The translations under genes and the position numbers were made by a program. Below are positions 10,015 through 58,670 of a stretch of 64,000 bases of DNA, one piece after another. The notes under the pieces are model-generated. The model had not been told where the DNA came from and did not search any database. It saw only the letters and a list, made by a program, of their open reading frames with translations. The stretch is from a gamma proteobacterium HTCC5015 (lineage in GTDB: Bacteria; Pseudomonadota; Gammaproteobacteria; HTCC5015): positions 2,680-66,679 of the forward strand of contig DS990608.1 of the NCBI GenBank assembly GCA_000155715.1, written 5' to 3'. Every line of letters begins with the position of its first letter. The first letter of the stretch is position 1.

Positions 10015-10104
10015 GGAGTTCTATCGGGTCGTTTTCAAAGCTCGCTATTCTAGCACAGGCGTATTATCAGACCTTGCTTAAAGGCGAGACAAATGAGGTG
10101 TAAA

Positions 10105-10122
10105 TGCGACGAAATTGTCGCA
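10105..10122. promoter_or_regulatory. Palindrome between two divergent genes
   Basis: TGCGAC-gaaatt-GTCGCA is an inverted repeat with 6-bp arms, midway between the DUF445 start and the CBS-protein start. It has the size of a dimeric repressor site. No regulator can be named. Confidence 0.3.
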
Positions 10123-10214
10123 CAATAACGACAAAAGCGCTCTATGGTTGCTATTGCTGATTTGGATTGCAGTACGCCGAGGGGCTCGCTAATCTGGCTC
10201 AAAAAGGAGACACC

Positions 10215-11666: not shown

Positions 11667-11855
11667 TTAAAACAGTGTCTTATTAGCTTTATATAAAGTA
11701 ATAGATCAATCTTAGAGAGCACGAAAATTCGCCTTTAATACTACACCAGAGTGCGCTTAACTAAACAGCCAATTGCCTACACCTCAGGCGTATTATCTCG
11801 TTGCATTTTTGCGTTAGAATGGAGCGACACAAACAGACTAAAACGATTTAATTCT

Positions 11856-13082: not shown

Positions 13083-13090
13083 CACCCGCA

Positions 13091-14569
13091 TCATTGAAAT
13101 AGGCGCTCGCTTTGAGGTCGCCCTTCGGGCGAGCTCAAGCGCATGTCGAGCAATTTGAGTTGTTTTATCTCTGCGTCGGTTGGCATCCAAGCGCTCATGC
13201 ATTGCTCGCTTTCAATACAGGGGTCGGTCAAGGCCTCTAAGAAAGAGACGATCAACTCGACCTCCTCTCTCGTGTAATCCAGCTCTGGCAAGCCATTTTC
13301 TCGCGCTTTATTAAGTGCGAATTCAGTATTGGCCTTCATGTGGGGGTAGTCTTTGCTGACATCTCGCCCCTCAAATTGCAGCAGGTGTTGCAAGGTGAAA
13401 TCGTACTGCTCAATGCTTTTTTCTGGGTGAATGTGGTGCCACACCGTATCGAATAAGGTTTCATAAGCGCCGTTGTGCATATAGGGAGCCGTGTGTTCGA
13501 CATTAAGCAGCGAGGGCGTGCGAAAGCGAAATTGATCGGCGTTATTGCGCGTGACACGCTTGCGGCCATAATCCGCATCAAGCTTGTCCATGCCTGGGCC
13601 AATTTGTGGCACGGCTAAATTGTAGTAGCGCTCATCGCTAAAAAACGGTGGGCGGTGGCAAGAAGCACAACTTTGGCCGTCGCCCTTAGCTTGAAAAAAC
13701 AGAGCGGCACCGCGTTTCTGGCGCTGGTTCAAAGCTTCTTTGTCGCCTTCGACGTAGCGTGCCCAAGGCGTGTCGATGAAATCTTTGGAGCGAATATAGG
13801 CGGTAATCGCTTTAGAGATATTAAAAAAACTGATGATACTTTCGTCGGCATCAGGCTCTTGTAAACCGCGTTGAAAAGCGGGGAGCCAAACACCCTCCCC
13901 CGCCTCGTTTTGAACCGATCGCATACGCGCCTCTATCGCCAACCGCACTCCGTCGGTATTGGCATAGGGCGTTTCAAAGCCCAGCATTTCATCGGGATTG
14001 GTCACTGGAAATCGGGTTTGCGCAAACAGCAAGTCACCCTCAATCACTCGGTGGTCGGGGGTGTCGAATAGACTATCGGGAGTAACAACTTGCGAATTGC
14101 CCTGTACTTCATCAAAACGTACTCGGCCGTCCCAAAATAGTGCCTTTTGGTAGTAGGTTGAGGCAAAGTCCGTGGGTACATTGCGCGGCATAGTGGCCAT
14201 GCCTTTGTGCCCCATGTTGTCACCCACCATTTTCGACTCATCCAGTTTGCGGCGGTGGCCGAATAGCAAGGGATCTTCAGCATTGATGCCAACGGCGAGA
14301 GAGAGATCTTCATCGCCACCGCGAAACGGGTGGTGGCAGCTCACACAGGCTACATCGCCACCGCCACTTAAGTGCGGTGAAAAAAACAGCGCACGCCCCA
14401 ACTCCGCTAGTGGTTCGTCGGCGGCGGGAATGGGCAGATCGACGCTCGGCTTGGCAGCGATTTCTTGTCGCTCTATCGTCTCTTGGAGTCGTTGATCGGT
14501 GTCTTGCCCGCAGGCGGTAAGCAGCACTGCCAGCGCGCAGACGCCCCATCGTTTTAGCACAGTCGTCAT
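13091..14569 (-). CDS. Di-haem cytochrome c peroxidase / MauG-family lipoprotein
   Basis: An exported di-haem protein of 492 residues. It has a lipoprotein signal (lipobox LLTAC at about residues 16-20) and two CxxCH haem sites. The first is CVSCHHPFRGG near residue 75 and the second is CASCHRPPFFSDERYYNLAV near 300. MHNGAYETLFD follows. This layout matches bacterial cytochrome c peroxidase/MauG-type proteins, which reduce hydrogen peroxide or oxidise other substrates. The exact substrate is not inferable. It is probably anchored to the periplasmic face of a membrane. It is convergent with ispG, 8 bp away. Confidence 0.9.
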   Translation of the reverse strand: MTTVLKRWGVCALAVLLTACGQDTDQRLQETIERQEIAAKPSVDLPIPAADEPLAELGRALFFSPHLSGGGDVACVSCHHPFRGGDEDLSLAVGINAEDPLLFGHRRKLDESKMVGDNMGHKGMATMPRNVPTDFASTYYQKALFWDGRVRFDEVQGNSQVVTPDSLFDTPDHRVIEGDLLFAQTRFPVTNPDEMLGFETPYANTDGVRLAIEARMRSVQNEAGEGVWLPAFQRGLQEPDADESIISFFNISKAITAYIRSKDFIDTPWARYVEGDKEALNQRQKRGAALFFQAKGDGQSCASCHRPPFFSDERYYNLAVPQIGPGMDKLDADYGRKRVTRNNADQFRFRTPSLLNVEHTAPYMHNGAYETLFDTVWHHIHPEKSIEQYDFTLQHLLQFEGRDVSKDYPHMKANTEFALNKARENGLPELDYTREEVELIVSFLEALTDPCIESEQCMSAWMPTDAEIKQLKLLDMRLSSPEGRPQSERLFQ

Positions 14570-30121: not shown

Positions 30122-30238
30122 AGAGGCGAAATAATCGAGGCGTTAATTACACAAACATTAGCATGAATTGGCTAATACAGCTTGCTATGGATACTTGTTG
30201 AAGTATTATCAAATGTACAAAAAAACGGACTCAAGGCA

Positions 30239-32908
30239 ATGAAATCTAACTTCTGGAAGCGCGACTGGTTCACAGCACTCGTCATCGTACTTTTTGTCTG
30301 CCTCTTTAGGCAATTTTTTCAAGGCATCGAAATGGCCGCCTACGATTGGGGCGTTCGCTCAGCAAACGCTGATCCCAGCGATCAAGTAGCCGTCGTCGCC
30401 ATTGATGAAAACAGCATTGCCAATATTGGGCGCTGGCCTTGGCCACGGGCTCAGCAAGCGGAGATCATCAATTATCTGTCGCAGGGCAACCCCGACACGA
30501 TCGCCTATCTCCCACTCTTTTCCGAGGCTCAGGTGGATCCGGGCCAAAGTTATATTTCGGCCCTGCTCAATTTTTTTGAGCAATCCAGCTTAAACGAACT
30601 CAGTTTGCTCAATGCCGAAAGCGCGATGTCTGAAGAAGCGGCACTCGAAGGCGACACGTCTCTAGCCAACGGAGCACCAGAGAGTTCACTTAGCAGCGAC
30701 GAGCAGGATTTATTGGCCTTTCCCCTCGTGCGCCAAGCAGCCCAAGATGCCGAGCAAATGCTGATTACACTTTACGAGGCCGAGCAGGCACTCGATGCCG
30801 ACTTACAGCTATCTAGCGCCTTTGAAGCCGCCAACAATGTGGTCACGCCCCTTTTATTCACGCGCATGGGCTCCCAGTTTCAAAACAATAAATCCGCCAC
30901 TCCCATGCCTGAGTCCGTGGCTGCACAAGCGCTCTCCAAGCCAGTAGATCGCATCAATGCTGCGCAAAATGGTCTATTGCCGCCCCTTGCCGTTGAGGCA
31001 GCACTACCCATCGCGGCTTACCGAGACAGCGCCGTGGGCTTGGGCCACATCAACACTTGGCAGGACCCTTCAGATGGCGTCGTCCGCTCCGACCAACTCG
31101 TTATTCAGTACGGCGACGCATTTTATCCCTCTTATGCATTGGCCATTGCCAGTGCTTATTTAGAGCTCCAACCCAAAGATTTACAAATTCAGTTGGGCGA
31201 AGGCTTAAAACTTGGCAATTTGTTTATTGGAACCGATCCACGTTTGCGCATGCGCAATTTTTACTACAGCGGCGACAATGGCAACGCCTTTAGCGTCGAT
31301 TCTTTATACGACTTAATTGCAGGTCATGTACCCGTCGACAAATACGAGGGCAAAATTGTCCTCGTCGGGCCGACGGCGGCCGGCGTCGGATCATCACAAG
31401 TAACGCCTATTTCTTCGATAACCTCCCCAGTACTCATGCTCGCACATACTGTGTCGAGTATTTTACAGGAGGATTTTTACACTCAACCCGCTTGGGCGCC
31501 TCTCGCTTCATTCGGCGTTCTACTTCTAGCTGCACTGTACTTGATGCTAGCACTGCCTCGGTTAAAGGCATTTACCGGCGCCCTAGTGACAGGTGGATTG
31601 GTACTCGGCATTGTCGCCAGCCACCACTTGGCGCTGACTCAAGGGCGGCTCTGGATCGAGTTGATGCTTCCCGTCTGCCTGTTGCTCATTGGCTACCTCA
31701 TATTGACCACCAAGCGCTTTCTCGTCACCGAACGCGGCAAAATGCGCTCTGATTTGGATAATGCTGAAACTAATCGCATGCTCGGACTGGCCTTCCAAGG
31801 TCAGGGCCAATTAGACATGGCGTTTGAAAAATTCCGCAAGTGCCCAATGGATAATTCGCTGATGGAAGTGCTTTACAACTTGGCCTTGGACTACGAGCGC
31901 AAGCGCCAGTTCGCCAAAGCCGTCAATGTCTATCAGCATATTGCCGATCACGACGCTCAATTCCGCGATGTACAGCAGCGACTCGATCGCGGCAAGAAAA
32001 TGGAAGAGACCATCGTGCTCGGTGGCGGTTCGGGTGGCGGTGCCGCCGCTACGATGATGATGGAAGGCGATGGCGTACAAAAACCCATGCTGGGGCGCTA
32101 TGAAATTCAAAAAGAGCTCGGCAAAGGCGCAATGGGTGTGGTGTATTTGGGAGAAGACCCCAAAATTAGCCGTACAGTCGCTATTAAAACCATGGCCTTG
32201 TCCCAGGAGTTTGACGAAGACGAGCTAGACGACGTCAAGGCGCGTTTTTTCCGCGAAGCCGAGACTGCGGGCCGCTTAAATCACCCTAATATCGTTACCA
32301 TTTACGATGCGGGCGATGAACACGACCTCGCCTACATCGCCATGGAATTTTTAAGCGGCAAAGATCTCGTACCCTACACCAAGCAGGGGCAGTTATTACC
32401 ACTTGCAACGAGCCTCGATATTGTCGCCCAGTGTGCCGACGCCCTTAATTACGCCCATGGGCACAACGTGGTTCACCGCGATATTAAACCCGCCAACATT
32501 ATGTACGACCCCGAAAAAGGCTCGGTTAAAGTCACGGACTTTGGCATTGCCCGCATTACTGATGCCAGCAAAACCAAAACAGGCGTTGTGCTAGGCACAC
32601 CTTCTTATATGTCGCCCGAACAGCTGGCGGGGAAAAAAGTGGATGGACGCTCCGATTTATTCTCTTTGGGTGTCATGCTCTATCAGATGGCGGTTGGGGA
32701 ACTGCCATTTAAAGCGGATTCAATGGCGACACTCATGTTCAAAATTGCCAACGACCCCACACCGGACCCGCGTTCAGTCGACAGCAACCTCCCCCAAGAC
32801 GTCGCCGACATTATCGCAAAAGCGCTTGAGAAGGATCCCGATCAGCGCTACGCCAGCGGCGCAGACATGGTTGCAGATCTACGCCAAAGCCTCGCGAGTC
32901 TAAGCTAA
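30239..32908 (+). CDS. CHASE2-domain transmembrane Ser/Thr protein kinase
   Basis: An 889-residue membrane kinase. One N-terminal membrane helix (about residues 11-28) is followed by a periplasmic CHASE2 domain starting VAVVAIDENSIANIGRWPWP. That domain contains a Ser/Ala/Glu-rich insertion at about 110-260. Three membrane helices follow at about 410-490, then a TPR-like helical segment (LGLAFQGQGQLDMAFEKFRK). The Hanks-type kinase at about 620-885 has GKGAMGVVYLG, K650, VVHRDIKPANI with D748, DFG at D767 and GTPSYMSPEQ. All catalytic residues are present. The ATG at 30239 with AAGG nearby is preferred to an upstream in-frame ATG at 30182. PP2C follows after 3 bp. Confidence 0.92.
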   Translation: MKSNFWKRDWFTALVIVLFVCLFRQFFQGIEMAAYDWGVRSANADPSDQVAVVAIDENSIANIGRWPWPRAQQAEIINYLSQGNPDTIAYLPLFSEAQVDPGQSYISALLNFFEQSSLNELSLLNAESAMSEEAALEGDTSLANGAPESSLSSDEQDLLAFPLVRQAAQDAEQMLITLYEAEQALDADLQLSSAFEAANNVVTPLLFTRMGSQFQNNKSATPMPESVAAQALSKPVDRINAAQNGLLPPLAVEAALPIAAYRDSAVGLGHINTWQDPSDGVVRSDQLVIQYGDAFYPSYALAIASAYLELQPKDLQIQLGEGLKLGNLFIGTDPRLRMRNFYYSGDNGNAFSVDSLYDLIAGHVPVDKYEGKIVLVGPTAAGVGSSQVTPISSITSPVLMLAHTVSSILQEDFYTQPAWAPLASFGVLLLAALYLMLALPRLKAFTGALVTGGLVLGIVASHHLALTQGRLWIELMLPVCLLLIGYLILTTKRFLVTERGKMRSDLDNAETNRMLGLAFQGQGQLDMAFEKFRKCPMDNSLMEVLYNLALDYERKRQFAKAVNVYQHIADHDAQFRDVQQRLDRGKKMEETIVLGGGSGGGAAATMMMEGDGVQKPMLGRYEIQKELGKGAMGVVYLGEDPKISRTVAIKTMALSQEFDEDELDDVKARFFREAETAGRLNHPNIVTIYDAGDEHDLAYIAMEFLSGKDLVPYTKQGQLLPLATSLDIVAQCADALNYAHGHNVVHRDIKPANIMYDPEKGSVKVTDFGIARITDASKTKTGVVLGTPSYMSPEQLAGKKVDGRSDLFSLGVMLYQMAVGELPFKADSMATLMFKIANDPTPDPRSVDSNLPQDVADIIAKALEKDPDQRYASGADMVADLRQSLASLS

Positions 32909-34523: not shown

Positions 34524-35417
34524 TTAATCAGGAAACACCCCAGTTGAAAGATAGCGATCGCCTCGATCGCATACCACAGTGGCGATGACCGCATTCTCTG
34601 TGGTTTGGGCAATTTTCAAAGCGGCACTGGCCGCCCCACCCGATGAAACACCCGCAAAAATGCCCTCCTCGGCTGCCATCAAGCGCATAGTATCTTCAGA
34701 TTCTTGTTGATTGACTTCTACGACTTGGTCGATATTTTCATCGGTGAAAATATCGGGCAAATAAGCCTCCGGCCACTTTCTGATCCCCGGGATACTCGCG
34801 CCCTCTTTTGGCTGAACGCCGATAACGCGAATGTTTGGGTTCATCTCCTTAAGATAGCGAGAAACACCGACAATTGTCCCCGTCGTGCCCATAGAGCTGA
34901 CAAAGTGTGTAATTTTTCCTTGGGTATCGCGCCACAATTCGGGACCAGTGCTCTGATAGTGAGCCATGGGATTATCGGGGTTAGAGAATTGATTCAGTTG
35001 ATACGCTTCTCCCCTGTCGGCCATTTGTTGCGCTAAATCGCGGGCGCCCTCCATCCCTGCTTCGGCATCCACTAAGACGACCTCTGCGCCATAGGCTTTC
35101 ATTGTCGCCACGCGCTCCTTACTCGCATTCGCCGGCATGATAAGGGTGATTGAATAGCCTTTGATAGAGGCAGCCATCGCCAGGGCAATACCTGTATTGC
35201 CGCTGGTGGCCTCAACAAGGCGCTGGCCCGGCTGAATGTCCCCCCGCGCTGCGGCTTGAACAATCATATTGAGCGCGGGGCGATCTTTGACAGAACCCGC
35301 AGGGTTGTTGCCTTCTAATTTGAAAAGGAGCTGGTTGCACCCAATGTCAGCCATTCTTTGCATTCGGACAAGAGGGGTATTACCGACAAATTGCTCGATC
35401 GTGGGAAAGTTTGTCAT
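34524..35417 (-). CDS. cysM: Cysteine synthase B (O-acetylserine sulfhydrylase)
   Basis: A PLP enzyme making cysteine from O-acetylserine and sulfide or thiosulfate. The 297 residues contain the PLP-lysine region LEGNNPAGSVKDRPALNMI, the asparagine loop EATSGNTGIALAMAASIKGY and SSMGTTGTIVGVSRYLKE for the phosphate loop. PEAYLPDIF and VSSGGAASAAL also match. The length and NPAGSVKDRPAL favour CysM over CysK. cysM near a gacS/barA-type kinase is also seen in Pseudomonas. Confidence 0.95.
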   Translation of the reverse strand: MTNFPTIEQFVGNTPLVRMQRMADIGCNQLLFKLEGNNPAGSVKDRPALNMIVQAAARGDIQPGQRLVEATSGNTGIALAMAASIKGYSITLIMPANASKERVATMKAYGAEVVLVDAEAGMEGARDLAQQMADRGEAYQLNQFSNPDNPMAHYQSTGPELWRDTQGKITHFVSSMGTTGTIVGVSRYLKEMNPNIRVIGVQPKEGASIPGIRKWPEAYLPDIFTDENIDQVVEVNQQESEDTMRLMAAEEGIFAGVSSGGAASAALKIAQTTENAVIATVVCDRGDRYLSTGVFPD

Positions 35418-35612: not shown

Positions 35613-37838
35613 ATGATTTTCAATCGAGCTACGGTCCTCTTAGGTTGCCTTTTCACTCTTTCATCCAGCTTTTCTGTCAACGCGGATGACTCCGCCTATT
35701 TTGACGAGCGCACTTACCTCAGCGACTTACCTGTGGTCATTTCGGCCTCCCGCTTAGAACAGCCGGAGCTGGAAGCGCCCGGGGCAGTGACCGTCCTCGA
35801 TCGGGACGACATCATCAGCAGTGGAGCGCGGACTATCCCCGAACTGTTTTACCAAGTACCGGGGTTTCAGGTTGGGCGCTTTACCGGCTCGGAGTATGTC
35901 GTCGCCTCACACGGCTTTTCTGATCACTATTCTCGACGCTTACAGGTGCTTGTCGATGGCCGCTCCATCTACACGCCTGCTTTTGGTGGCATTGTTTGGG
36001 AAAGTTTGCCGATTCACATTAATGACATCGAACGTGTAGAGATTATTCGCGGCCCCAATGCGACGCTCTATGGTTCTAACGCGTTTAATGCAGTCATCAA
36101 TATCACCACACGATTTGCCGCTGGCACGACGCCTCAATCTATTTCCTACACCCACGAAGACCGCGACAACTACAGCGGACACGCCAGCGCCTCCATTGTA
36201 GAATCCCGCTACGAAATCGGAATGAACGCCAACTACCGCGAAAACAGCGGTTTTGGAAAAATTCCCAGCGATCAAACGACGCCTACCAATCCCAACACGG
36301 GCCAGCCTTATGATGAAATGCAGGACAGCATTCGCAGTAGAGCGGCCAATATTATGTGGCGCTATCAAGCGAGCACTCAGCTCGAAATCAGCAGCGACAT
36401 GGGGCTGCTTGATGCCGTACGAGACTTTGGCGACGGTGTGATTGATGATCCCTACCGCGACATGAATATCGACAGTGATTACTACCGAGTTAGATTTGAC
36501 TATACCAGCGATCACGGTAATCACCTCTCGTTACAAGCCTTCCACTCAGCTGTGGATCTACAAGATGGTGATGCTGTGGTCCCCCTCAGTGTGCCATTTG
36601 ATAATCCCGCACTAGGTGGGGGGGTAGACGTATCCACTTCATTCAAAGAAGTGCGGCAAGAAATAGAACTGCAGTTTACACCCGAACTCGACAGCAATTT
36701 GCGCTTAGTCATGGGCGGGAGCTATCGCAAAGACACCATTGAAGGCGAGCAAGGTCGTATTTTTCGTGACGACAAATCCACGCTAAACCTTGGCAGAATC
36801 TTTATCAATAGCGAGTGGCATGCATCACAAGACTGGATCTTGGGGGCAGGTGTTATGGCCGAAGATCACGAGCACAGTGGCAGCAGTTACTCGCCTAAAT
36901 TATCAGCCATTTATAAAGTCACTCCACACCAGGCATTCCGTGTCATTGCTTCGCGCGCTTACCGTACGCCGACAGCTTGGGAGGAAGAAGGTATTTTACG
37001 CTTTTATCTACCCGTTCAACCGCTGGAGCAATTGATTTCACAAGCGACAGGCATGCCTATCGACTTTCCCGCCGACCGTCTCGATTACCAAGCTTACCAA
37101 ACCGAAGGCAATCTGGAGAACGAAGAAATTACTTCCTTTGAGCTGGGCTATAAATTTGTGCCCAATGAAAATACAAAACTCGACATTCGACTATTTCGCG
37201 AAGATATCGACGACATGATTGCAATCTATTCCCGCCCCTTCGATCTCGTCGCCCAAGGGCTATTGAACAACAACCAAATTCAAACCATTGAAGGGCTCAA
37301 CAACACTATTGGATTCGATAGTAGCGCCTTAACGAACGCCATTGGTTCTGGCAACGCCTATAACTTCCGCAACTTAGTCGATATCGATATAAATGGCTTA
37401 GAGCTAGAGGGCGAGCATGCAATCAATGATTCTTTCCAAATACTCGGTGGCTTTGCTTGGCTCGACAGCCAAATCGAGCGTTACGCGGATCCTGCAAACG
37501 GCATTGTAGAAGACAATATGGAAAATAATAGAAAGACATTGAACAATTCTGTGCCCGAATACTCCGGTTTTATTGGAGGGCGGTTCACCCCGACGAATAA
37601 CCATTTACTGGCCCTCACCTTCTATCACTTTGACGAGTACGAGTGGCACGGTGCTGGCGACGACGATCTAGGTGAAACGCAGTTTTTCCGCCTTTACGCA
37701 CAGGCAACCCACGAATACACCCACTACGCTTGGAAAATGGGTGTCGGTGCCGTTATTCGCGCGGAACCATTTAGGGATATCGACAACAAAAATGCATTCC
37801 AGAACCATTTATTTAGTACGGTCGGAGTGGATTTTTAA
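35613..37838 (+). CDS. TonB-dependent outer-membrane receptor
   Basis: A 741-residue gated beta-barrel receptor. A signal peptide ends near residue 24 (FSVNA|DD). A TonB-box-like segment DLPVVISASRLEQPELEAPG is followed by the plug domain (VTVLDRDDIISSGARTIPEL, RLQVLVDGRSIYTPAFGGIV, IERVEIIRGPNATLYGSNAF). The barrel ends in the aromatic terminus STVGVDF. Substrate is unknown; the gene starts an apparent operon with a binding-protein-like gene 67 bp downstream and a BarA-like kinase. No siderophore or vitamin genes are adjacent. It may transport a ligand or act as part of a sensing relay. Confidence 0.9.
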   Translation: MIFNRATVLLGCLFTLSSSFSVNADDSAYFDERTYLSDLPVVISASRLEQPELEAPGAVTVLDRDDIISSGARTIPELFYQVPGFQVGRFTGSEYVVASHGFSDHYSRRLQVLVDGRSIYTPAFGGIVWESLPIHINDIERVEIIRGPNATLYGSNAFNAVINITTRFAAGTTPQSISYTHEDRDNYSGHASASIVESRYEIGMNANYRENSGFGKIPSDQTTPTNPNTGQPYDEMQDSIRSRAANIMWRYQASTQLEISSDMGLLDAVRDFGDGVIDDPYRDMNIDSDYYRVRFDYTSDHGNHLSLQAFHSAVDLQDGDAVVPLSVPFDNPALGGGVDVSTSFKEVRQEIELQFTPELDSNLRLVMGGSYRKDTIEGEQGRIFRDDKSTLNLGRIFINSEWHASQDWILGAGVMAEDHEHSGSSYSPKLSAIYKVTPHQAFRVIASRAYRTPTAWEEEGILRFYLPVQPLEQLISQATGMPIDFPADRLDYQAYQTEGNLENEEITSFELGYKFVPNENTKLDIRLFREDIDDMIAIYSRPFDLVAQGLLNNNQIQTIEGLNNTIGFDSSALTNAIGSGNAYNFRNLVDIDINGLELEGEHAINDSFQILGGFAWLDSQIERYADPANGIVEDNMENNRKTLNNSVPEYSGFIGGRFTPTNNHLLALTFYHFDEYEWHGAGDDDLGETQFFRLYAQATHEYTHYAWKMGVGAVIRAEPFRDIDNKNAFQNHLFSTVGVDF

Positions 37839-37905
37839 GTTTGCTTGGCCTAAGACTATTCACATGAGGTCCAACGGGACGTTGATACGTGGCTAATATA
37901 GGGAA

Positions 37906-38808
37906 ATGATGCACAGGAATAGCATATGCGCTCGATGGCTAGGTGGCTTTTTAGCTTGCCTTGCCCCCCTGTGCCTCAACGCCCAGCCACTCATCATCAG
38001 TGACGGTAGCCACGGGATATACGAGCAACTGGTTAAAGATGTTTTTGAACAGTATCAAGAGGACGGCATCGAACCCATAATATACGCGCTCGATCAACCC
38101 CACAGCGCGCCATCTCAACATGAGCTGTCTCTAATTGACGAAGTCGTCAGTATTGGTAGTGGCGCCATGAAGGCGATATTTGAGTACAAAAGCCTCGAAG
38201 TCCCTTCACTGAGCTTACTAACAACGAAAGAGAGCTATCTAGAGCAGATTGCTGAGAACCCTAGGGATGCGGCCCTGCGCTCTGTGATCTACCTCAATCA
38301 GCCATTAAACCGAATTGTCCATGTTGGAAAATCTGTGTTTGAAGATCCCGTTGAATACATTATTTTCGACAACAAGCGATTTCAACAACAGCGTGACATC
38401 ATCCATCAACAAGTCATCACCTATAAACCACTTGTCGACAACACGGTGATTAAAGCCATTCGAAATCTGGATAGCACACCACAAAAAGCCATCATCGCCC
38501 TCCCCAGTCATACAGCATTTACGCCGATAACCATTAAAAACACGCTGATCAGCGCCTATAAAGCACAGATACCCATTATTGGTTACTCGCAAAGCTTTAC
38601 TCAAGCCGGCGCTTTATTTTCCGTACACAGCGATGTAGAGCGCTTGCCCGACGAAGTACGTTTGTGGAGAGAAAGCCGTCACCGCCAATCTCAACGTGCC
38701 TCTCGCTACTATATCGTGAGTATCAATCATCAAATCGCCCGATCTCTCGATATCGAGTTAGCGCCAAAATGGCAGAAAGAACGCGTCCATTTGGAGGGTT
38801 CACCGTGA
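37906..38808 (+). CDS. Periplasmic binding-protein-like protein (ABC_sub_bind type), no transporter partners
   Basis: A 300-residue exported protein. A signal peptide (WLGGFLACLAPLCLNAQP) is followed by a two-lobe binding-protein-like fold. Recognisable parts are ISDGSHGIYEQLVKDVFEQY and, in the second lobe, IIALPSHTAFTPITIKN, then IPIIGYSQSFTQAGALFSVH, which resembles the ABC_sub_bind (PF04392-type) hinge. No ABC permease or ATPase gene is near. The gene lies between a TonB receptor and a hybrid kinase, and its TGA overlaps the kinase GTG (GTGA). It probably presents a ligand to that kinase. This is inference; the family call is moderate. Confidence 0.75.
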   Translation: MMHRNSICARWLGGFLACLAPLCLNAQPLIISDGSHGIYEQLVKDVFEQYQEDGIEPIIYALDQPHSAPSQHELSLIDEVVSIGSGAMKAIFEYKSLEVPSLSLLTTKESYLEQIAENPRDAALRSVIYLNQPLNRIVHVGKSVFEDPVEYIIFDNKRFQQQRDIIHQQVITYKPLVDNTVIKAIRNLDSTPQKAIIALPSHTAFTPITIKNTLISAYKAQIPIIGYSQSFTQAGALFSVHSDVERLPDEVRLWRESRHRQSQRASRYYIVSINHQIARSLDIELAPKWQKERVHLEGSP

Positions 38809-41417
38809 AGTCTTGGGCACTGAAAAATCGTTTGCTGTTCCTTTCAATGCTGCCATTAACGCTATCGATTGTTGTTATTGGTGCTTATTTCCTGAAGGCC
38901 AATATCGATACACTCAGACAGCACGCTCACGATCAAGGTCGCTTGATCGCTCGTCAGTTGGCCCCCGCTATGGAGTACGGCATTGTTTCAGGCAACAAAA
39001 AATCACTCGAAAAACTCGCCCGCAACGCCCTGTCTAACTCGAGTGTTATTCGTGTTTCAGTTTACAACGATGAGGAATCCACATTACTAGAAAAAACCAA
39101 GAACATTCCTGAGCGACCCGCTTATCGCCTATTTTTCGACTATGCCTTTGAGTTATTTTCAGGCCTAAATACGACCGACACATTTTCCTACCCAGTCACT
39201 AGCGAAGTAATACCTCTGAATGATTTCTTTGAAGCATCCAGCAACAAGGAACCCCAGAAACAAGTCGGCTATGTAGAGGTTGAAATTTCTTTTTCAGACA
39301 GCGCCTACGAACAAGTGCTAGTTGCTGCCAGCGCCTTTGGTATTGCGACGGCCGTTATTTTATTAGTTTACGCTTCGACATCGTTAATTAGCCGCCAAAT
39401 CAACCGTTCTATCTCAGAGCTCGCCGATACGGTGGAATCCATTCAGGCCGGCAACTTTTCAGCTCGCGCAAGAATCGACGACGAGCAGGAGCTCGGTTCA
39501 CTGGCCTCTGGTATCAATGTGATGGCGAGCCAGATTGCACGTTCAAAAGATGATCTTGAGCGCGAAGTCGCCATTGCGACATCCGAACTTAAGCAAAAAA
39601 ATGAAGCGTTAACCATTGCCCAAGCCGAAGCCGTTTCAGCCAACAAAGCCAAGTCGGTTTTCCTGGCCAACATGTCACACGAAATTCGAACGCCTCTCAA
39701 TGGGATTATTGGCTTCTTGGACATGCTTAACCGCACCAAAGTAGACAGCCAACAAAACCAATACATCAGCACCGCGCAGGTTGCCGCTAAAAGCTTGATT
39801 CAGTTAATCAACGGGATCTTAGATTTCTCGCGTATTGAATCGGGAAAAATGCCGTTAAAACAAGACGAAATTCCCATCGACGACTTACTGGCTGAAATCT
39901 ACGATTTGCACGCGCCCTCTGCCTTCGAAAAGGGCGTTGAACTACTTTTCTTCCCGGCCCAGAGCCTACCCTCAACACTGATGCTCGACGCCAATGTCTT
40001 TAAACAGATTATTGGCAACCTCCTGTCAAATGCCATCAAATTCACCCAGCATGGTGACATACAGCTGCACATGAATTACTTCGCAGAGAACCGCGCCATT
40101 GCAATCAGCGTACTCGACTCGGGTGTAGGCATTTCTCAAGAAGTCATCAACGATATTTTTAACGAGTTTGAACAAGGCGATAACACCACCGCACGGGTAC
40201 ACGGTGGCAGCGGGCTTGGATTGGCGATTACACGCAGCCTCGTCGAGCTTCACGGCGGTAGTATTTCGGCCCACACACGCCCAGAGGGCGGAGCGCGTTT
40301 TGACCTCACGATACAGGCCAGCCAACGCAAACCTGCACCACCCCCACGCCACGATTTAAAAGTTTTATTGACGTCGCTGAACGACAATTCCACACAGAGC
40401 TTTAAGCTTGTGCTTCAACGATACGGCTATCATGTATTAACACAGCCCCCCAGCAACGATACAAGCGACCAGATAAAGCGCCACATCACCTTGGTCAGTG
40501 GCGACGAGCTACATTACCGCTTTCACGGCGCGAGTGATTCGGTCGCCCTTGTGAGCAGTAACGACCCTGCAAAACTCAATGTGTGCCTCGACTGGGGCAT
40601 GCGCCAGGCATTTTGCAAAACGCTGTCTCGAGATACCCTAACAGCCATCATTCTGGGCAAGGCCGAACAAAAGCACCGAGCTCCGTCAGACGCACTATCC
40701 GATACACAATTAGTGGCCTCTGGCCTGCATATTTTGGTGGTTGACGACAATCACATTAACCTCACGTTGATGGACAGTTTGCTGAGCGAGCTCGGTGCGG
40801 AAGTTCTGATGTCAGATAATGGAGAAACCGCTATCGAGGCGGCTAAAACCAATCACATTGATCTCGTATTTCTCGATATTCACATGCCCGTCATCGATGG
40901 CTTTGAGACCTGTCGACAACTCCGAGCACTACCTAAGGGGCAAGACCTCCACATTGTTGCGCTCAGTGCGGATGGCGTAGAAAGTGCAAAACACAAGGCG
41001 TTTGAGGCTGGGATGGATGAATATTTAATCAAGCCAGTCGCACGAAGTGAACTTATAGGCCTCATCAACAAGCACACGAAAGACTCACAAGGAGTACCAA
41101 AGCCGATAGCCGACGATAGCCATGATGGGGAATCCAGCGATGGTGCGGGAGAAGACCTCCTACTGACTGAGCTGCGCAGCATGTTCACCCAAAGCCTACC
41201 GCAGTGGATGAATGACGTGCATCAAGCGCATTTAGAACAAGATAGAGACGCCCTATTCCAAGCGGCCCACAAAATTTTTGGCGCCTGTGTCTACTGCCAC
41301 TACCCAAAGATTGAAGAAGCGGCCAAGGCACTCGAAGACACCGCACGCGATCAACTCAAAGAGCAATACGACGAGCGAGTCGCCGCCTTGGACGCAGCAG
41401 TTGCCGTCTTATTGTAA
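38805..41417 (+). CDS. BarA/GacS-like hybrid sensor histidine kinase
   Basis: An 870-residue inner-membrane kinase. Two membrane helices at about residues 13-30 and 170-190 flank a periplasmic region that begins like the BarA/GacS sensor domain (RLIARQLAPAMEYGIVSGNK). HAMP and a coiled coil follow. HisKA has HEIRTPLNGIIGF with H292. The ATPase has IIGNLLSNAIKFT, VLDSGVGIS and GGSGLGLAIT. The receiver has phosphoacceptor D691 in VFLDIHMP. The C-terminal Hpt has H822 in AAHKIFGACVYC. This four-step phosphorelay layout is that of BarA/GacS, which drives a GacA/UvrY regulator; no such gene is in the window. The GTG start has GGAGG 8 nt upstream and overlaps the previous stop. An upstream longer frame is rejected. 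Confidence 0.9.
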   Translation: MKSWALKNRLLFLSMLPLTLSIVVIGAYFLKANIDTLRQHAHDQGRLIARQLAPAMEYGIVSGNKKSLEKLARNALSNSSVIRVSVYNDEESTLLEKTKNIPERPAYRLFFDYAFELFSGLNTTDTFSYPVTSEVIPLNDFFEASSNKEPQKQVGYVEVEISFSDSAYEQVLVAASAFGIATAVILLVYASTSLISRQINRSISELADTVESIQAGNFSARARIDDEQELGSLASGINVMASQIARSKDDLEREVAIATSELKQKNEALTIAQAEAVSANKAKSVFLANMSHEIRTPLNGIIGFLDMLNRTKVDSQQNQYISTAQVAAKSLIQLINGILDFSRIESGKMPLKQDEIPIDDLLAEIYDLHAPSAFEKGVELLFFPAQSLPSTLMLDANVFKQIIGNLLSNAIKFTQHGDIQLHMNYFAENRAIAISVLDSGVGISQEVINDIFNEFEQGDNTTARVHGGSGLGLAITRSLVELHGGSISAHTRPEGGARFDLTIQASQRKPAPPPRHDLKVLLTSLNDNSTQSFKLVLQRYGYHVLTQPPSNDTSDQIKRHITLVSGDELHYRFHGASDSVALVSSNDPAKLNVCLDWGMRQAFCKTLSRDTLTAIILGKAEQKHRAPSDALSDTQLVASGLHILVVDDNHINLTLMDSLLSELGAEVLMSDNGETAIEAAKTNHIDLVFLDIHMPVIDGFETCRQLRALPKGQDLHIVALSADGVESAKHKAFEAGMDEYLIKPVARSELIGLINKHTKDSQGVPKPIADDSHDGESSDGAGEDLLLTELRSMFTQSLPQWMNDVHQAHLEQDRDALFQAAHKIFGACVYCHYPKIEEAAKALEDTARDQLKEQYDERVAALDAAVAVLL

Positions 41418-41429: not shown

Positions 41430-42170
41430 CTAAACCGCTGTGCTACGAGCGCGGTCAATGCGCTGGCGCATAGCCGTGACAGCTGCCTCCATACCTACAA
41501 ATACCGCATCGGCAACGATGGCATGACCGATATTGAGCTCGCTCACCACCTCAATCGCCGCAATGTCTGCGACATTATCGAGATTCAAGCCGTGCCCAGC
41601 ATGTACGAGCAAGCCTAAAGAATCCGCCAAAGCGGCGCCCTCGCGAATACGTGCAAGCTCGCTTTCGCGCGCTGCGACACTATCTGCTTCTGCATAGCGG
41701 CCCGTGTGAAGTTCGACCACACTAGCGCCAATGGCTTTGGCGCACTGAATTTGCTCGGGTTCGGCATCGATGAATAAAGAAACACGGCACCCTGCCTTGG
41801 CTAAACGCGAAACCGCTTTTTCAACCGCAGACCGATACTTCACGACGTCTAGGCCACCCTCAGTCGTCAACTCTTCTCGCTTCTCTGGCACGAGACATAC
41901 GGCAAACGGGGCCGTGTTCTCCGCAATGGCGATCATTTCTTCGGTCACTGCCAGCTCTAAATTCATTCGGGTGCCTAGCTCCGTTTTAAAAGCGGCTACA
42001 TCAGCATCTTGAATATGGCGCCGATCCTCCCGCAGGTGCAGTGTAATGCCATCAGCTCCCGCCTTTTCGGCCAACTGTGCCGCCTTAAGTGGAGAGGGGT
42101 AAGTCGTCAAACGGGCTTGTCGCAATGTCGCGACATGATCAATATTGATACCCAGTTCACAGTATTTCAT
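41430..42170 (-). CDS. pdxJ: Pyridoxine 5'-phosphate synthase PdxJ
   Basis: Final ring-closing enzyme of the DXP-dependent vitamin B6 pathway. The 246 residues contain [74 protein letters not shown] and [12 protein letters not shown], all family signatures. The ATG at 42170 fits the family start better than an in-frame GTG 39 nt upstream; neither has a strong ribosome site. It is convergent with the kinase gene, 12 bp away. recO, its common partner, is absent. Confidence 0.95.
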
Positions 42171-42325
42171 TTGAAATCCAATCTTTTCGTTGAGACAGGT
42201 TATTTCCACAAAGAATAGTGGAGAGCCCTAAGTGATTCTGCTACTTTGGTGCCAATTATAACAATCTAAAGACCGAATCGCGCTAAATCCTACATTTAGA
42301 CGCAGCTGCTCAGGAGAGAACTATC

Positions 42326-44530
42326 GTGTCGCGGCGATTTTCCGTAAGAATTCTACTCAGTCTTATTTTAGTGGCTCTGTTTATTGCTCAAGCAGGGCCT
42401 TGGATGAATATCCAAATTATTAGCTCGTTAGAGAACATTGCCTACGATCTGAGACTCAATGCGACACGCCCAGACACCGTCGACGATAGAATTGTCATTC
42501 TCGATCTCGACGAAAAGTCTCTGTCAGAAGTGGGCCGCTGGCCTTGGAGTCGGCACCACATGGCAGAACTGTTGGATCAGTTATTTGAGCACTACAACAT
42601 CCGCGTTATCGGCTTCGATATGGTATTTGCCGAAGCCGACGAAAGCTCAGGACTGAATGTTTTACAGACGCTCGCCAATGGAGCACTCAAAGATGTCCCA
42701 GAGTTCACACAAGAGTTTCAAACGCTGCGCCAATCACTGAAGTACGACCAACGCTTTGCCGATAGTTTAAAAGACCGCCCCGTCATTATGGGCTATGTTT
42801 TTAACTTAAACTCGGAAGACAAGTACAACATATTGCCCCCATCGCTCGGCGAGGTCGGAGACGGCCTTCACTTTATCCAGCCCGAAGGGTACACAGGCAA
42901 TCTGGAAATACTGCAAAAAAACGCCGCAGGTGGCGGCTTTTTCGACAATCCCAGAGTCGATGAAGACGGCATTTTCCGCCGCGTTCCGCTACTGCAATCT
43001 CACGATGGTGAACTGTACGAATCCCTAGCAATGGCAACAACTCGCATGGCATTGGGATTCCCCGAAATGCGTATCGAAACTTACAGTGACGGCGGCAACT
43101 ATCAAGCCATTGAAAGTATTACACTCGGGGACGAATATCGCATTAATGTCGATAAAAATACGTCTGTGCTCGTTCCCTACCGCGGTCGCCAGGGAAGCTT
43201 CCCCTACGTATCCGCCGTAGACGCACTGAAACAACGGGTAGACCAATCGGCGCTACAAGGCAAGATCGTCTTGCTGGGAACGTCCGCTCCCGGGCTTCTC
43301 GATTTGCGCTCTACCCCTGTGGAGAAAAACTATCCCGGGGTAGAAGTCCACGCCAATGTCATCTCGGGGATTCTCGACAACCGTATCAAACACCAACCCT
43401 CCTACACGCTCGGTGTTGAAGTACTCGTCCTACTGGTACTCGGTATTGCCATGATTGCTATCACCGCCCTACTCTCGCCTCTATGGAGTACGGCCTTCAC
43501 CTTAGGCCTGATGCTAGTGACCATCGCGTTCAATATGCTGGCTTGGGAAGCGGGGCTCGTCGTTCCCATTGCTAACACCTTACTGCTTCTTTTGGGTCTG
43601 TTTATTTTACATATGTCGTACGGCTTCTTTATCGAGTCGCGCGGTAAAAGGGCCCTCGCCAAGCTGTTCGGCCAGTACATTCCCCCAGAGCTCGTCGACG
43701 AGATGTCTGCCGACCCCACGGAGATCGTCTTAGACGGTCAAAGCCGGGAAATGACGGTGCTTTTTTCCGATGTACGCGGTTTCACCACTATTTCTGAAGG
43801 GCTCGACCCCAAAGAGCTAACCCAACTGATGAACAGCTTTTTGACCCCGATGACGCGGATTATTCACCACCACCGCGGCACTATCGACAAATACATGGGG
43901 GATGCGGTCATGGCTTTTTGGGGCGCGCCTCTGGATGATGCCTACCACGCCAAAAATGCGCTCTACGCCGCTTTTGAAATGATCCGAGAGCTCGACGAGC
44001 TGCAGCAGGAATTCCAACAGCGCGGGTGGCCAGAAATCCGTATTGGCGTCGGTTTAAACACGGGCACCATGAGCGTTGGCAACATGGGTTCTGAGTTCCG
44101 CATGGCCTATACCGCGCTCGGCGATGCGGTCAATCTTGGCTCTCGCCTCGAGGGACTCACCAAGCAATACGGCGTCACACTGATCGTCAGCGAGACGACC
44201 GCGGAAGCCGTGCCCGAGTGCGACTACCTCGAACTCGATCGCGTGCGAGTCAAAGGCAAGAGCGAGCCCGTGACGATTTATGAGCCCATTGGCTTAAGCA
44301 TTGATTTAAGCAAAGAGGAGCGCTCAGAAGTTCGACGCTTCAATAAAGCACTCGAACTCTATCGAAGCCAGCGCTGGGACCAAGCCGAGCAAGAAATTTT
44401 CTCGCTGGCTCAGTCGACAAATACAAAAGATCGCAAGGTCTATCAAATTTATTTAGAGCGAATACAGCTCTTCCGAAAAGAGCCACCCCCTGAAAATTGG
44501 GATGGCGTTTTTACACATACAAGCAAGTAA
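42326..44530 (+). CDS. CHASE2-domain class III adenylate cyclase
   Basis: A 734-residue membrane cyclase. After one N-terminal helix comes a periplasmic CHASE2 domain (RIVILDLDEKSLSEVGRWPW), then three membrane helices at about residues 355-435. The class III catalytic domain is at about 470-640: metal aspartates D482 (VLFSDVRGFTTISEG) and D526 (KYMGDAVMAFWG), base-selecting K522 and T596 (AYTALGDAVN), and NLGSRLEGL. The Lys/Thr pair is typical of the ATP-specific IIIb subclass, so cAMP is the expected product. A helical tail follows. The GTG start has AGGAGAG upstream. The same sensory domain type is used by the kinase at 30.2 kb. Confidence 0.92.
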   Translation: MSRRFSVRILLSLILVALFIAQAGPWMNIQIISSLENIAYDLRLNATRPDTVDDRIVILDLDEKSLSEVGRWPWSRHHMAELLDQLFEHYNIRVIGFDMVFAEADESSGLNVLQTLANGALKDVPEFTQEFQTLRQSLKYDQRFADSLKDRPVIMGYVFNLNSEDKYNILPPSLGEVGDGLHFIQPEGYTGNLEILQKNAAGGGFFDNPRVDEDGIFRRVPLLQSHDGELYESLAMATTRMALGFPEMRIETYSDGGNYQAIESITLGDEYRINVDKNTSVLVPYRGRQGSFPYVSAVDALKQRVDQSALQGKIVLLGTSAPGLLDLRSTPVEKNYPGVEVHANVISGILDNRIKHQPSYTLGVEVLVLLVLGIAMIAITALLSPLWSTAFTLGLMLVTIAFNMLAWEAGLVVPIANTLLLLLGLFILHMSYGFFIESRGKRALAKLFGQYIPPELVDEMSADPTEIVLDGQSREMTVLFSDVRGFTTISEGLDPKELTQLMNSFLTPMTRIIHHHRGTIDKYMGDAVMAFWGAPLDDAYHAKNALYAAFEMIRELDELQQEFQQRGWPEIRIGVGLNTGTMSVGNMGSEFRMAYTALGDAVNLGSRLEGLTKQYGVTLIVSETTAEAVPECDYLELDRVRVKGKSEPVTIYEPIGLSIDLSKEERSEVRRFNKALELYRSQRWDQAEQEIFSLAQSTNTKDRKVYQIYLERIQLFRKEPPPENWDGVFTHTSK

Positions 44531-55539: not shown

Positions 55540-57726
55540 TTACGGGTGAGTCTTAAAGACATCATCGAGCTCTTCAAAACAGTTCGGCGTTGCCAAGAAG
55601 TAGCCTTGAGCACAATCCACCCCCATCTCTTTCACTAAACTCAATGTGAGTTCGTCTTGAACAAAGCCCGCGATAGTAAACTTGCCCATCACACGGGCAA
55701 GCTCGGCGATGGCCGACACCAATGTTTTGTTCACATCACTGGCCAATAATCCCGTCACCAGTTCGCGTTGAATTTTCAAACCATCAAAGGGGATGTTCTG
55801 TAATTTTCCGCTCGCACTTAACCCCGCGCAGAACCCATCCATAATAATGACGCATCCCAAGCCACTCAGCGCTTTTAAGCCTAGCAGCGCCTCTTGGCGA
55901 CTGTTGAGTAACGCCTGCTCTTCCACCTCAAACGCTAAACGAGAGGGTTCTATCTCCGTTTCTTTTATCAAGCTGCCCAGCCAATCGATAAACTGCGTAT
56001 CCTCTAGCGCCTTGGCCGATAGATTGATAGACAACCCCGCTGTTTTGTTCGGCTGATGCGCTACCGTACTCAACGCATGCTCTATCACCCAGCGTGCGAC
56101 CTCTACCGAAAAACCAAATCGATCGGCAGCCCCTAGAAACGCATCGGGTGGGATTAATTCACCGGGCTCTCCCTGCATACGCAACAACACTTCGTAGTAG
56201 CGTACTTGCTGGCTCTTTAAATCTAGAATTGGCTGATAGTGCAGTACAAAGCGGTCGTCTTTTAGTGCCGCAGCCAATTTTTTCGACCAGCCAGAGTCTT
56301 CGAGCAGCTGTTGCTTTTGCATCTGGCCCGCATCGTACATGACAAGGCCGTTACGGCCTCGAAGCTTGGCCATTTGGCAAGCGCTATCCGCTTGTTTCAA
56401 CAACTCGTCCACGGTGAATTGAGACGACTCAATCATCGTGATTCCAATACTGCAGCAGATATTAAACACTTGGCCCTGCTCGCTATACTGATAACCTTCC
56501 ATCAGCTGTAGAATGCCCTCGGCCACTTGTTGGGCCTCTAACTCGCCCACCCCCGACACTAAAACGACAAATTCATCGCCTCCAAATCGTGACACCACAT
56601 CGTACTCGCGCACTCGGCTTTTAAGTATCTCAGCCACTTGAACCAGCAAGCGATCGCCCGCATCGTGCCCCAAACGGTCGTTGATCGCTTTGAACTCATC
56701 CAAGTCTATGAAAAACAGAGCACTGGTCTGTTGCGTGTCTTCCACTGTCAGCAATTCAGAAATCACCTGATCCGTGAAAAAGTGACGATTGACTAAGTGT
56801 GTGAGACTGTCGTGATTCGCCAAATCGCGAAGTGCTTGATCGCGCTCAGCGATCGCGTGAATGGTGGAGTTGAGAGCATCGCTAATAGCACTGACCTCGC
56901 GCACGCCGCTACGTTTAACGCGCACACGCATGTCACCTTCTGCAAGACGCGCCAGCGGCGTTTGCAACTCCTCTAAGGGCCTGAGAATCCGCTTTAAATG
57001 CAAATACCCCAGAAACAGCAACAAGGCAAAGACCACCGCCGCCAATAAGCTGCCTTGCCATATACGTTCAGCGAGCTGCTGTTGGTATTGGCTATAGTCC
57101 ACACCGAGCTCAATGAAACCAATGAGTTGAGATCGCTCGCTTTCACTTCCTTGAAGCTCAAAATCCATCATGCCATCTGATGTAATCGAGCGAATCCAAA
57201 CCGGTGCCATCGCACGAATTATCTTGCGCTCCTCGTAGCGCTCAACATCGACTTCAATCAGCTGCTGTCCGCGATCGGCACTCAATAGCGCCACTTCATT
57301 TGATGTCAGTGAGTCCAGTGGCGTATCAATGGCTTTGATACTGCGATATTCACCAACCAATGTTTTTCCCTGAGGCCCGTAGTAGCGAAGATAGTCAACA
57401 CTGGAAAAGCTCTCCATCTGGCGAGCAATCTCATCCATCACCTGCGGATCTTGCGAGACATAGAGCGGCACGCCTAATTCATCAGCGGCCTTTACCCAGC
57501 GGCGAGCTTGATCCTGCAAGTTCACACTGATGACGGAATTGACGACCCACCACAGGCACAACAGCGCAAAAAAATACACAACCAAGCCCCACAGGGTGTG
57601 CATCAATAAAACGCTGGTAGCAATACTGGTATCGTTACGTCGTGAAAACAGCGGCCACTGGCGCACCTGCTGGCGAGCACTTTCAAACCGCGATTTCAAA
57701 CCCTTTGATAGCTGTTGAAAGCTCAT
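55540..57726 (-). CDS. Membrane GGDEF-EAL protein with intact cyclase and degenerate phosphodiesterase domain
   Basis: A 728-residue c-di-GMP signalling protein. Membrane helices at about residues 37-65 and 224-243 flank a periplasmic sensor, and HAMP spans 244-298. GGDEF is at 382-386 with I-site REYD at 373-376, so cyclase activity with feedback inhibition is likely. The EAL domain (about 485-720) reads EVL at 512-514, but DDFG is replaced by D630-G631-F-C and the glutamate of the EGVE-type motif is lost (IAGFVQ), so hydrolysis is unlikely. A lipoprotein binding-protein gene ends 11 bp upstream and is probably co-transcribed. Confidence 0.9.
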   Translation of the reverse strand: MSFQQLSKGLKSRFESARQQVRQWPLFSRRNDTSIATSVLLMHTLWGLVVYFFALLCLWWVVNSVISVNLQDQARRWVKAADELGVPLYVSQDPQVMDEIARQMESFSSVDYLRYYGPQGKTLVGEYRSIKAIDTPLDSLTSNEVALLSADRGQQLIEVDVERYEERKIIRAMAPVWIRSITSDGMMDFELQGSESERSQLIGFIELGVDYSQYQQQLAERIWQGSLLAAVVFALLLFLGYLHLKRILRPLEELQTPLARLAEGDMRVRVKRSGVREVSAISDALNSTIHAIAERDQALRDLANHDSLTHLVNRHFFTDQVISELLTVEDTQQTSALFFIDLDEFKAINDRLGHDAGDRLLVQVAEILKSRVREYDVVSRFGGDEFVVLVSGVGELEAQQVAEGILQLMEGYQYSEQGQVFNICCSIGITMIESSQFTVDELLKQADSACQMAKLRGRNGLVMYDAGQMQKQQLLEDSGWSKKLAAALKDDRFVLHYQPILDLKSQQVRYYEVLLRMQGEPGELIPPDAFLGAADRFGFSVEVARWVIEHALSTVAHQPNKTAGLSINLSAKALEDTQFIDWLGSLIKETEIEPSRLAFEVEEQALLNSRQEALLGLKALSGLGCVIIMDGFCAGLSASGKLQNIPFDGLKIQRELVTGLLASDVNKTLVSAIAELARVMGKFTIAGFVQDELTLSLVKEMGVDCAQGYFLATPNCFEELDDVFKTHP

Positions 57727-57737
57727 GATCGGATTCC

Positions 57738-58670
57738 CTATTCCCTTTGCCTTTTTCGAGTTAATCCCAATCGGCTCTTGGCTTTATCGGAGACTTTAAA
57801 CGCAAACGATTCAGGAAAGTGCATTTTAATCTCGCGGTGATTCGCTAGCGCCCTCTGCTGCGCTTTGGCAATAGAGCGATCTGTCGTGGTCACACTGGCC
57901 AGCGCTCCAATCTCCAATAAACTGTCATCAAAAGCCACCACTTGGCGTCCCACTCTAACCGCATGGCCCATCAACTCACGCAAAGCATCTCGGCTTGTCA
58001 CGCGGTTATCGGGCATGAGCCACTGACCTTGAATGGAATGAGGCAAATTTTTACTGACATAGACGAGCTCCTTATCGTTGCGGACCGTAAAGGCCTGAAC
58101 ATGAATGCCCCATGCCTCTCCCGCTTCTTTGATAACAGCCACTAAGTGGTCATGCCCGGCCCCTGTAATAACAGCTACACGATTAAGAGTAGGCGATAAT
58201 TCTCGCCAGCGCTGAAAAACCTGTTGCGGACTGGGTAATAAGCTCACGCATTGTAGATTCGCAGAAAGCTCTAACGCGGGCGAATGGTTGAATACTTTAC
58301 TGAAAACCACTCGCTTTTGTCGCATCTCGCTGGCCAAACGAGCTGCGGGAAGACCAATCGCCGCCACGCGGTCGTATTCATCCCGCCCCACCACCGAAGC
58401 CACTGCCGCACTGCGCTGCCCGTTTTTGATATTAAACAATTCAGAGTCCGCTGAGTGATCGAGCAAATACTTGGCCACGCTTTGATACATCACATCGTCG
58501 CCAGTCGTGATCACGGCCAGCTTTAAGGAGGGCTCCACTGGCCGCTCGGCTTGAGCGGAAGAAGCTGGGGACTGCTGGGGTTGATAAACAATTTGCCGAT
58601 GCTGGCTACAAGCGCTCAGAACGCCACACAGCCCAATGAATAGCCATTTTTCGGCCAAATGTCCCATCAT
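57738..58670 (-). CDS. Lipoprotein with ABC_sub_bind-like fold, paired with the GGDEF-EAL gene
   Basis: A 310-residue lipoprotein. Signal LFIGLCGVLSACSQ has lipobox LSAC, followed by a Ser/Gln/Pro linker and a two-lobe fold (LKLAVITTGDDVMYQSVAKY, DRVAAIGLPAARLASEMRQK, RVAVITGAGHDHLVAVIKEA). Near residue 215-265 QWLMPDNRVTSRDALRELMG and VVAFDDSLLEIGALASVTTT match the second-lobe pattern of the binding protein at 37.9 kb. No transporter genes are near. It probably regulates the adjacent membrane cyclase through its periplasmic domain; this is inference. Confidence 0.75.
   Translation of the reverse strand: MMGHLAEKWLFIGLCGVLSACSQHRQIVYQPQQSPASSAQAERPVEPSLKLAVITTGDDVMYQSVAKYLLDHSADSELFNIKNGQRSAAVASVVGRDEYDRVAAIGLPAARLASEMRQKRVVFSKVFNHSPALELSANLQCVSLLPSPQQVFQRWRELSPTLNRVAVITGAGHDHLVAVIKEAGEAWGIHVQAFTVRNDKELVYVSKNLPHSIQGQWLMPDNRVTSRDALRELMGHAVRVGRQVVAFDDSLLEIGALASVTTTDRSIAKAQQRALANHREIKMHFPESFAFKVSDKAKSRLGLTRKRQRE

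Follow-up and report, generated by a model that had tools for sequence, protein, structure and literature searches.

The window, a stretch of 64,000 nucleotides from the genome of the gamma proteobacterium HTCC5015, harbors three genes arranged head-to-tail on the plus strand (35613-41417), which encode a TonB-dependent outer-membrane receptor (TBDR), a periplasmic substrate-binding protein (SBP) and a BarA-type hybrid histidine kinase. The three genes are located between a divergent cysM gene and a convergent pdxJ gene, and the locus contains the following features:

34524..35417, minus strand: cysM, the left boundary of the conserved gacS locus, with a homologue similarly placed in many loci
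35613..37838, plus strand: TBDR, 741 amino acids, with ATG at 35613; Pfam Plug and TonB_dep_Rec_b-barrel domains
37906..38808, plus strand: SBP, 300 amino acids, with a PF04392/TrpX-like fold, orphan; ATG at 37906 and TGA ending at 38808
38793..38798, plus strand: Shine-Dalgarno-like GGAGGG for the kinase, within the SBP gene, by sequence inspection
38805..38808, plus strand: GTGA overlap, formed by the kinase GTG (38805-38807) and the SBP TGA (38806-38808)
38805..41417, plus strand: GacS/BarA-type hybrid histidine kinase, 870 amino acids, with GTG at 38805; assigned by Pfam, tree and locus synteny
38907..39320, plus strand: periplasmic sensor domain of the GacS/BarA sensor type; sCache_4, with a profile match to 5o7j
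38961..38996, plus strand: sensor motif APAMEYGIVSGN (family consensus APASEYGVFSGN), a candidate SBP-docking site, kept in SBP-paired effectors
39651..39845, plus strand: HisKA phospho-acceptor domain (PF00512, residues 283-347)
40731..41066, plus strand: receiver domain (PF00072, residues 643-754)
41169..41405, plus strand: Hpt domain (PF01627, residues 789-867)
41430..42209, minus strand: pdxJ, the right boundary of the conserved gacS locus, with a homologue similarly placed in many loci

The gene order and the exact overlap bear out, as an operon-like arrangement read from the DNA, the TBDR-SBP-kinase operon with a GTGA overlap that an earlier analysis (the sequence-only reading) had described. 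The TBDR and SBP genes are separated by 67 bp, a gap in which no convincing promoter or terminator was found and in which motif counts are close to those of shuffled sequences. The GTGA overlap fits translational coupling of the kinase to the SBP. The kinase has its own strong Shine-Dalgarno sequence, GGAGGG, located 6 bases ahead of the GTG; it can therefore also start independently, and coupling may not be strict.

The Pfam domains of the kinase follow the order sCache_4-HAMP-HisKA-HATPase-REC-Hpt, with a two-TM Cache sensor. Against the BarA model NF008318 the protein scores 465-468 bits, under the 890-bit equivalog cut-off, and is therefore called GacS/BarA-type by place and descent and not a BarA equivalog; this NCBIfam cut-off is passed in only 3 of 276 sampled genomes. 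In a quick tree, the kinase, though on a long branch, is placed within the BarA set, separately from ArcB, TorS, RcsC and EvgS (SH-aLRT 95). Most SBP-linked kinases group with E. coli BarA in the same tree, and a few lie outside. The kinase is also the only full-length match to the BarA model in the genome, the runner-up being partial (247 bits). That it might be an unrelated BarA-like paralogue was considered and dropped, since it is the sole full-length match and is located at the gacS site.

Other components of a Gac-like pathway are likewise encoded in the genome. A GacA/UvrY homologue (42% identity) overlaps uvrC, as in E. coli, and one CsrA is present, in keeping with the Gac-like pathway that had been postulated for the locus. 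A search of the genome with the CsrB model gave no match, such models often missing Rsm/Csr RNAs, and no GacA box was found in the genome at up to one mismatch. The system thus resembles GacS/GacA and BarA/UvrY in kinase architecture, sensor family, cysM/rlmD site, the location of gacA beside uvrC and the presence of CsrA. However, E. coli barA stands alone by rlmD, whereas the window kinase has a co-encoded TBDR and SBP and an EYGxxxGN sensor motif.

The site itself is conserved. A frame of rlmD-cysM on the left and (acpS-)pdxJ-recO-era on the right recurs in many lineages, and three fillings of the rlmD-cysM/pdxJ site were observed: barA by itself (loci L186, L195, L199, L200 and others), SBP-barA (L187, L188 and L221, together with L189, which lies beside rlmD-relA) and TBDR-SBP-barA (L013, L014, L124, L138, L222, L230, L232 and others). 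Two genomes of the window's own family differ in this respect. One (G001, locus L186) shows the order PP2C-FHA-rlmD-cysM, kinase, pdxJ-cyclase, which is nearly that of the window, with no TBDR or SBP, while the other (G003, locus L014) contains the full triad. In E. coli, barA is located beside rlmD-relA and has no TBDR or SBP partners. Judged by these gene orders, the gacS/barA site accommodates the TBDR-SBP pair as an optional extra, and the window kinase is, by synteny and descent, the GacS/BarA-type kinase of the classical gacS/barA locus. The sequence-only reading had noted that in Pseudomonas, too, the gacS-type kinase lies near cysM; its assignment to the BarA type stands, but proximity to cysM understates the case, since the window kinase occupies the GacS locus itself as its GacS/BarA-type kinase.

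Some variants and neighbors of this site may also be recorded. At L184 (genome G059, 2351-6830) the SBP gene lies behind barA, still within the cysM-pdxJ frame, and at L185 (G056, 5684-9616) it is again behind barA and not ahead of it. In the window, two related CHASE2-type proteins flank the gacS locus (30182-32908 and 42326-44530), the second of which resembles an adenylate/guanylate cyclase; around the bare gacS locus of G001, too, CHASE2-type proteins are found together with a PP2C phosphatase and an FHA protein.

The SBP carries a Sec-type signal peptide, as judged by eye. A Pfam scan of this protein alone gave no family over the cut-off, PF04392 included, yet 9 of the 11 aligned members of its family match PF04392 (ABC_sub_bind, the TrpX class). 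Its AlphaFold model (pLDDT 88.4) retrieved TrpX/CD0873-type structures as the top five Foldseek hits, the best being 3lft (with L-Trp; E 2.9e-10), 3lkv, 6hni (E 1e-7) and 6hnj. The modeled protein thus has the same fold as the PF04392/TrpX class, which weakly suggests a small, perhaps aromatic, metabolite as the ligand. The sequence is divergent, being only 15-22% identical to its homologues, and many positions conserved in the family are changed in it. For instance, position 201 is Ser in place of the Asp found in 46 of 46 other homologues (100%), and position 131 is Asn where 91% of homologues have Asp. The window SBP may bind a different ligand or be under weaker constraint. In the other SBPs of the family, the corresponding Asp, Gln, Arg and Asn residues are nearly invariant, which points to ligand binding across the family as a whole.

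PF02653 permeases are partners of TrpX-class SBPs. No importer permease or ATPase gene is present in the neighborhood of the window SBP, and a PF02653 family search found no such permease in the window genome, while 12 of 14 control genomes were positive. The SBP had been called an orphan because no permease lies nearby, and the description now extends, for PF02653, to the whole genome; an ordinary ABC importer was dropped as a reading on this ground. The likeness to TrpX and CD0873 (3lft, 6hni) is thus one of fold, as those proteins belong to ABC importers or act as adhesins, whereas the window SBP has no permease and has a kinase partner.

The TBDR matches the Pfam Plug (E 1.6e-20) and beta-barrel (E 2.8e-26) domains. 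No N-terminal STN signaling domain was found in it by the Pfam scan, and FecA-type signaling was dropped for this reason. In the FecA-FecR-FecI system, cell-surface signaling is begun by a TBDR and relayed by an anti-sigma/sigma pair. The TBDR would likewise start a trans-periplasm signal in the arrangement we propose, but here the relay would consist of the SBP and a phosphorelay, with no STN domain. The nearest curated model of the triad TBDRs is NF053590, the TOL_0244 family, which was matched by 30 of 30 sampled; the window TBDR scores 207 bits against it, below the 645 cut-off, and is not a TOL_0244 equivalog. TOL_0244 is from an alkane degrader, and, according to one report, the related receptor OmpS senses alkanes and elicits chemotaxis (PMC6304351). 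This family is only a lead toward the ligand of the TBDR and SBP; the window TBDR lies far under the cut-off, and an alkane ligand is not implied.

To what extent the arrangement recurs was examined in several samples. A search of 55 relatives revealed SBP homologues in 11 genomes, including the window's own; in the other 10, a kinase or GGDEF gene directly follows the SBP gene, and in most of them a TBDR gene precedes it. A profile search of 276 genomes sampled from the class found the SBP family in 76, and this set was also searched with the BarA model NF008318. In this even sample, the SBP is located directly upstream of a full-length BarA-model match in 38 of 60 genomes, among the matches listed (63 matches); in these 38 pairs, likewise among the matches listed, the genes are codirectional and the SBP gene stops about 20 bases (median) short of the kinase. 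One SBP-linked kinase (G202) passes the strict BarA cut-off, with 907.5 versus 890 bits. A further 80 loci were taken from GTDB contigs with a closer SBP subset as the query, which skews them toward SBPs containing an AGALAA-type stretch. Among the taxa represented are Undibacterium, Azospira oryzae, Dechloromonas, Thauera, Methylobacillus, Curvibacter and Rhodoferax as well as Thiodiazotropha symbionts and a Solemya gill symbiont.

Altogether, the gene order of the window recurs in about 90 other loci. The sequence-only reading had proposed searching other genomes for the triad and had held that its absence from all relatives would speak against the idea; as the triad is present in many relatives, that objection falls away. 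The TBDR gene lies directly before the SBP gene in 92 of 109 large loci with enough upstream DNA, leaving 17 with no adjoining TBDR, and the effector encoded after the SBP is a BarA-type kinase at 64, an HK-REC protein at 21 and a GGDEF protein at 17 of 102 junctions, counts that come from SBP-selected loci with close relatives included and are thus not independent. The stop and start codons overlap by exactly 4 bases at 66 of these 102 SBP-effector junctions. No importer gene is a constant neighbor in the more than 90 loci. In Betaproteobacteria, the TBDR-SBP pair instead precedes a diguanylate cyclase or a shorter HK-REC gene, at other sites.

What these effectors share is a GacS-type sensor. 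Representatives of them contain the same sCache_4 domain, and a profile of the SBP-paired sensors found one significant solved structure, 5o7j, the detector domain of P. aeruginosa GacS (E 1.1e-14). Conservation at HAMP positions is about equal in SBP-linked and unlinked kinases, whereas the periplasmic stretch differs. There, the sequence in SBP-linked kinases is (L)AP-A-S-E-Y-G-V-F-S-G-N; 81% of them also retain a downstream Asp (window residue 140), versus 9% of unlinked kinases. Among all SBP-following effectors, unfiltered, the motif is shared by BarA-type kinases, HK-REC proteins and diguanylate cyclases; in one alignment (A5), rows were pre-filtered for the motif, so that its invariance there is partly built in. 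The window kinase retains it (LAPAMEYGIVSGN). The consensus APASEYGVFSGN is replaced in most SBP-less GacS/BarA proteins, including P. aeruginosa GacS, which has LAPLAATALARKDT where SBP-paired sensors have LAPASEYGVFSGN, and the bare kinase of G001 has LAIAARPALTNND at this place.

Scored over five positions, the motif occurs in 47 of 58 linked versus 7 of 23 unlinked kinases (Fisher p 4e-5, uncorrected for kinship). A kinship-corrected test on the kinase-core tree had only 4 supported pairs, with 2-3 for, 0 against and p at least 0.25, and after this correction the association of the motif with the SBP is no more than suggestive. There are exceptions of both kinds: the motif is partly preserved in E. 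coli BarA, which has no SBP, and Thiodiazotropha kinases are SBP-paired but lack the motif Glu. In addition, one gacS-site kinase (L203, G183) has nearly the whole SBP-type motif, ASEYSVLSGN, in a genome with no SBP detected, perhaps a recent SBP loss.

In the model of the window sensor (pLDDT 88.9), the motif spans the last part of the long helix 1 and the turn that leads into helix 2, from which we infer that it forms the membrane-distal tip of the sensor. The nearest solved fold by Foldseek is a LapD-type periplasmic domain (4u64, from a LapD orthologue). LapD holds a periplasmic protein by its periplasmic domain. Beyond the divergence of the kinase core, SBP distances correlate with those of the TBDR (partial r 0.59, the strongest pair) and, modestly, with those of the sensor (0.35, with a HAMP control of 0.23).

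Collectively, these data support a reading, to which we assign a probability of roughly 0.6, in which the TBDR provides a ligand, the SBP carrying it docks on the GacS sensor and the output runs via GacA/Csr. A compound from outside (or made by the cell itself) would enter the periplasm through the TBDR and there be bound by the SBP. The loaded (or empty) SBP would then dock on the membrane-distal face of the sensor around EYGxxxGN, and docking would switch the His-Asp-His phosphorelay toward GacA and hence Csr/Rsm control. In Betaproteobacteria, the same TBDR-SBP-sensor front end would be plugged onto diguanylate cyclases.

An unlikely alternative is that the TBDR and SBP are an uptake pair, importing a nutrient via an unlinked inner-membrane transporter, while the kinase, as a mere neighbor, senses something else directly by its Cache pocket. 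Direct sensing of this kind is seen in E. coli BarA, whose Cache pocket accommodates protonated acetate or formate (PMC8639471), and uptake would be in keeping with the TBDR-SBP co-divergence being the strongest (0.59) and with loci that have an SBP-kinase pair with no TBDR or an SBP behind barA. However, the genome has no PF02653 permease and the more than 90 loci have no constant importer neighbor; moreover, the tightest pair is the SBP and the effector, with their 4-base overlaps, and the sensor motif tracks the SBP even with a GGDEF output. Still less probable is that the SBP is a constitutive, ligand-independent inhibitor or chaperone of the sensor, with the TBDR acting otherwise, e.g., as a gauge of the envelope state. 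The near-invariant Asp, Gln, Arg and Asn residues of the other SBPs suggest ligand binding in the family and so argue against it, though conserved residues of the pocket type are replaced in the window SBP, the nearest solved fold of the sensor is a LapD-type domain and an adjoining TBDR is missing in 17 of 109 loci. Finally, the TBDR and SBP genes could be hitch-hiking relics in a stable housekeeping neighborhood, where cysM, rlmD and pdxJ are conserved too, with no functional tie to the kinase, but this is very improbable, as in Betaproteobacteria the pair precedes GGDEF and HK-REC genes at sites other than this one and the gacS site occurs without the pair, so that something other than the site must keep the linkage.

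If the SBP does deliver the signal to GacS, a broader view may be entertained, in which the TBDR-SBP relay is an old, widespread GacS/BarA input and direct sensing arose later, once the pair had been lost and the motif had decayed. We consider this possible but lean against it, and the same doubt attaches to its corollary, that direct sensing by the SBP-less kinases of E. coli (BarA) and P. aeruginosa (GacS) would be secondary.

An SBP gene beside a kinase gene is a known arrangement, as in the SBP-linked kinases of P. aeruginosa (PMC11113362). The LuxP-LuxQ and TorT-TorS pairs and these P. aeruginosa kinases resemble the arrangement described here in that the binding protein is encoded beside the kinase and has no transport role. 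That the window SBP would, as in LuxPQ and TorTS, form a complex with the sensor that alters kinase activity is suggested only indirectly, by linkage, the shared motif and modest co-divergence. The unit in the window differs from LuxP-LuxQ, TorT-TorS and the P. aeruginosa kinases in having an SBP of the PF04392/TrpX class, a Cache sensor of the GacS type and a TBDR in the unit. In the NspS-MbaA system of Vibrio, an SBP controls a c-di-GMP enzyme. The betaproteobacterial TBDR-SBP-GGDEF versions are similar to it, but contain another SBP class, and NspS-MbaA has no TBDR. What appears to be new is that the SBP-linked kinase is a GacS/BarA-type kinase at the GacS locus, that the TBDR belongs to the SBP-kinase unit and that the front end has been exchanged between kinase and c-di-GMP outputs. 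A search of the open-licence literature for TBDR-SBP with GGDEF or kinase and for gacS-cysM-TonB yielded no description of the triad, and papers on the GacS/BarA sensor (PMC7695008, PMC12148439, PMC5595915, PMC8639471) mention no TonB or binding-protein partner.

The signal of GacS is called unknown in a 2020 review (PMC7695008) and in a 2025 study (PMC12148439). If it is delivered by the SBP, which is encoded beside GacS in a large share of Gammaproteobacteria, the ligand could be fished with this soluble protein, a much simpler task than with a kinase embedded in the membrane. Two-component sensing in bacteria would also gain an outer-membrane step. The occurrence of one TBDR-SBP-sensor front end with either a kinase or a diguanylate cyclase as its output provides natural domain swaps in which docking could be probed.

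Several loci depart from the simple triad. At L190 (G225, 5126-13402), genes for a TBDR, an SBP, a BarA-type kinase and a GGDEF protein have overlapping ends, and one front end may thus serve both kinase and GGDEF outputs. Two tandem TBDR genes lie 5' of the SBP and kinase genes at L223 and L163, and at L161 (9944-12846) the TBDR-SBP pair is followed by a second TBDR-like gene that overlaps the SBP gene, with no kinase or GGDEF gene directly behind. The window itself contains, on the minus strand at 55540-58670, a second SBP-family lipoprotein (PF04392, 5.8e-8), followed by a HAMP-GGDEF-EAL protein; no TBDR adjoins them, and the sensor region of the latter protein weakly matches positions 119-252 of the BarA model.
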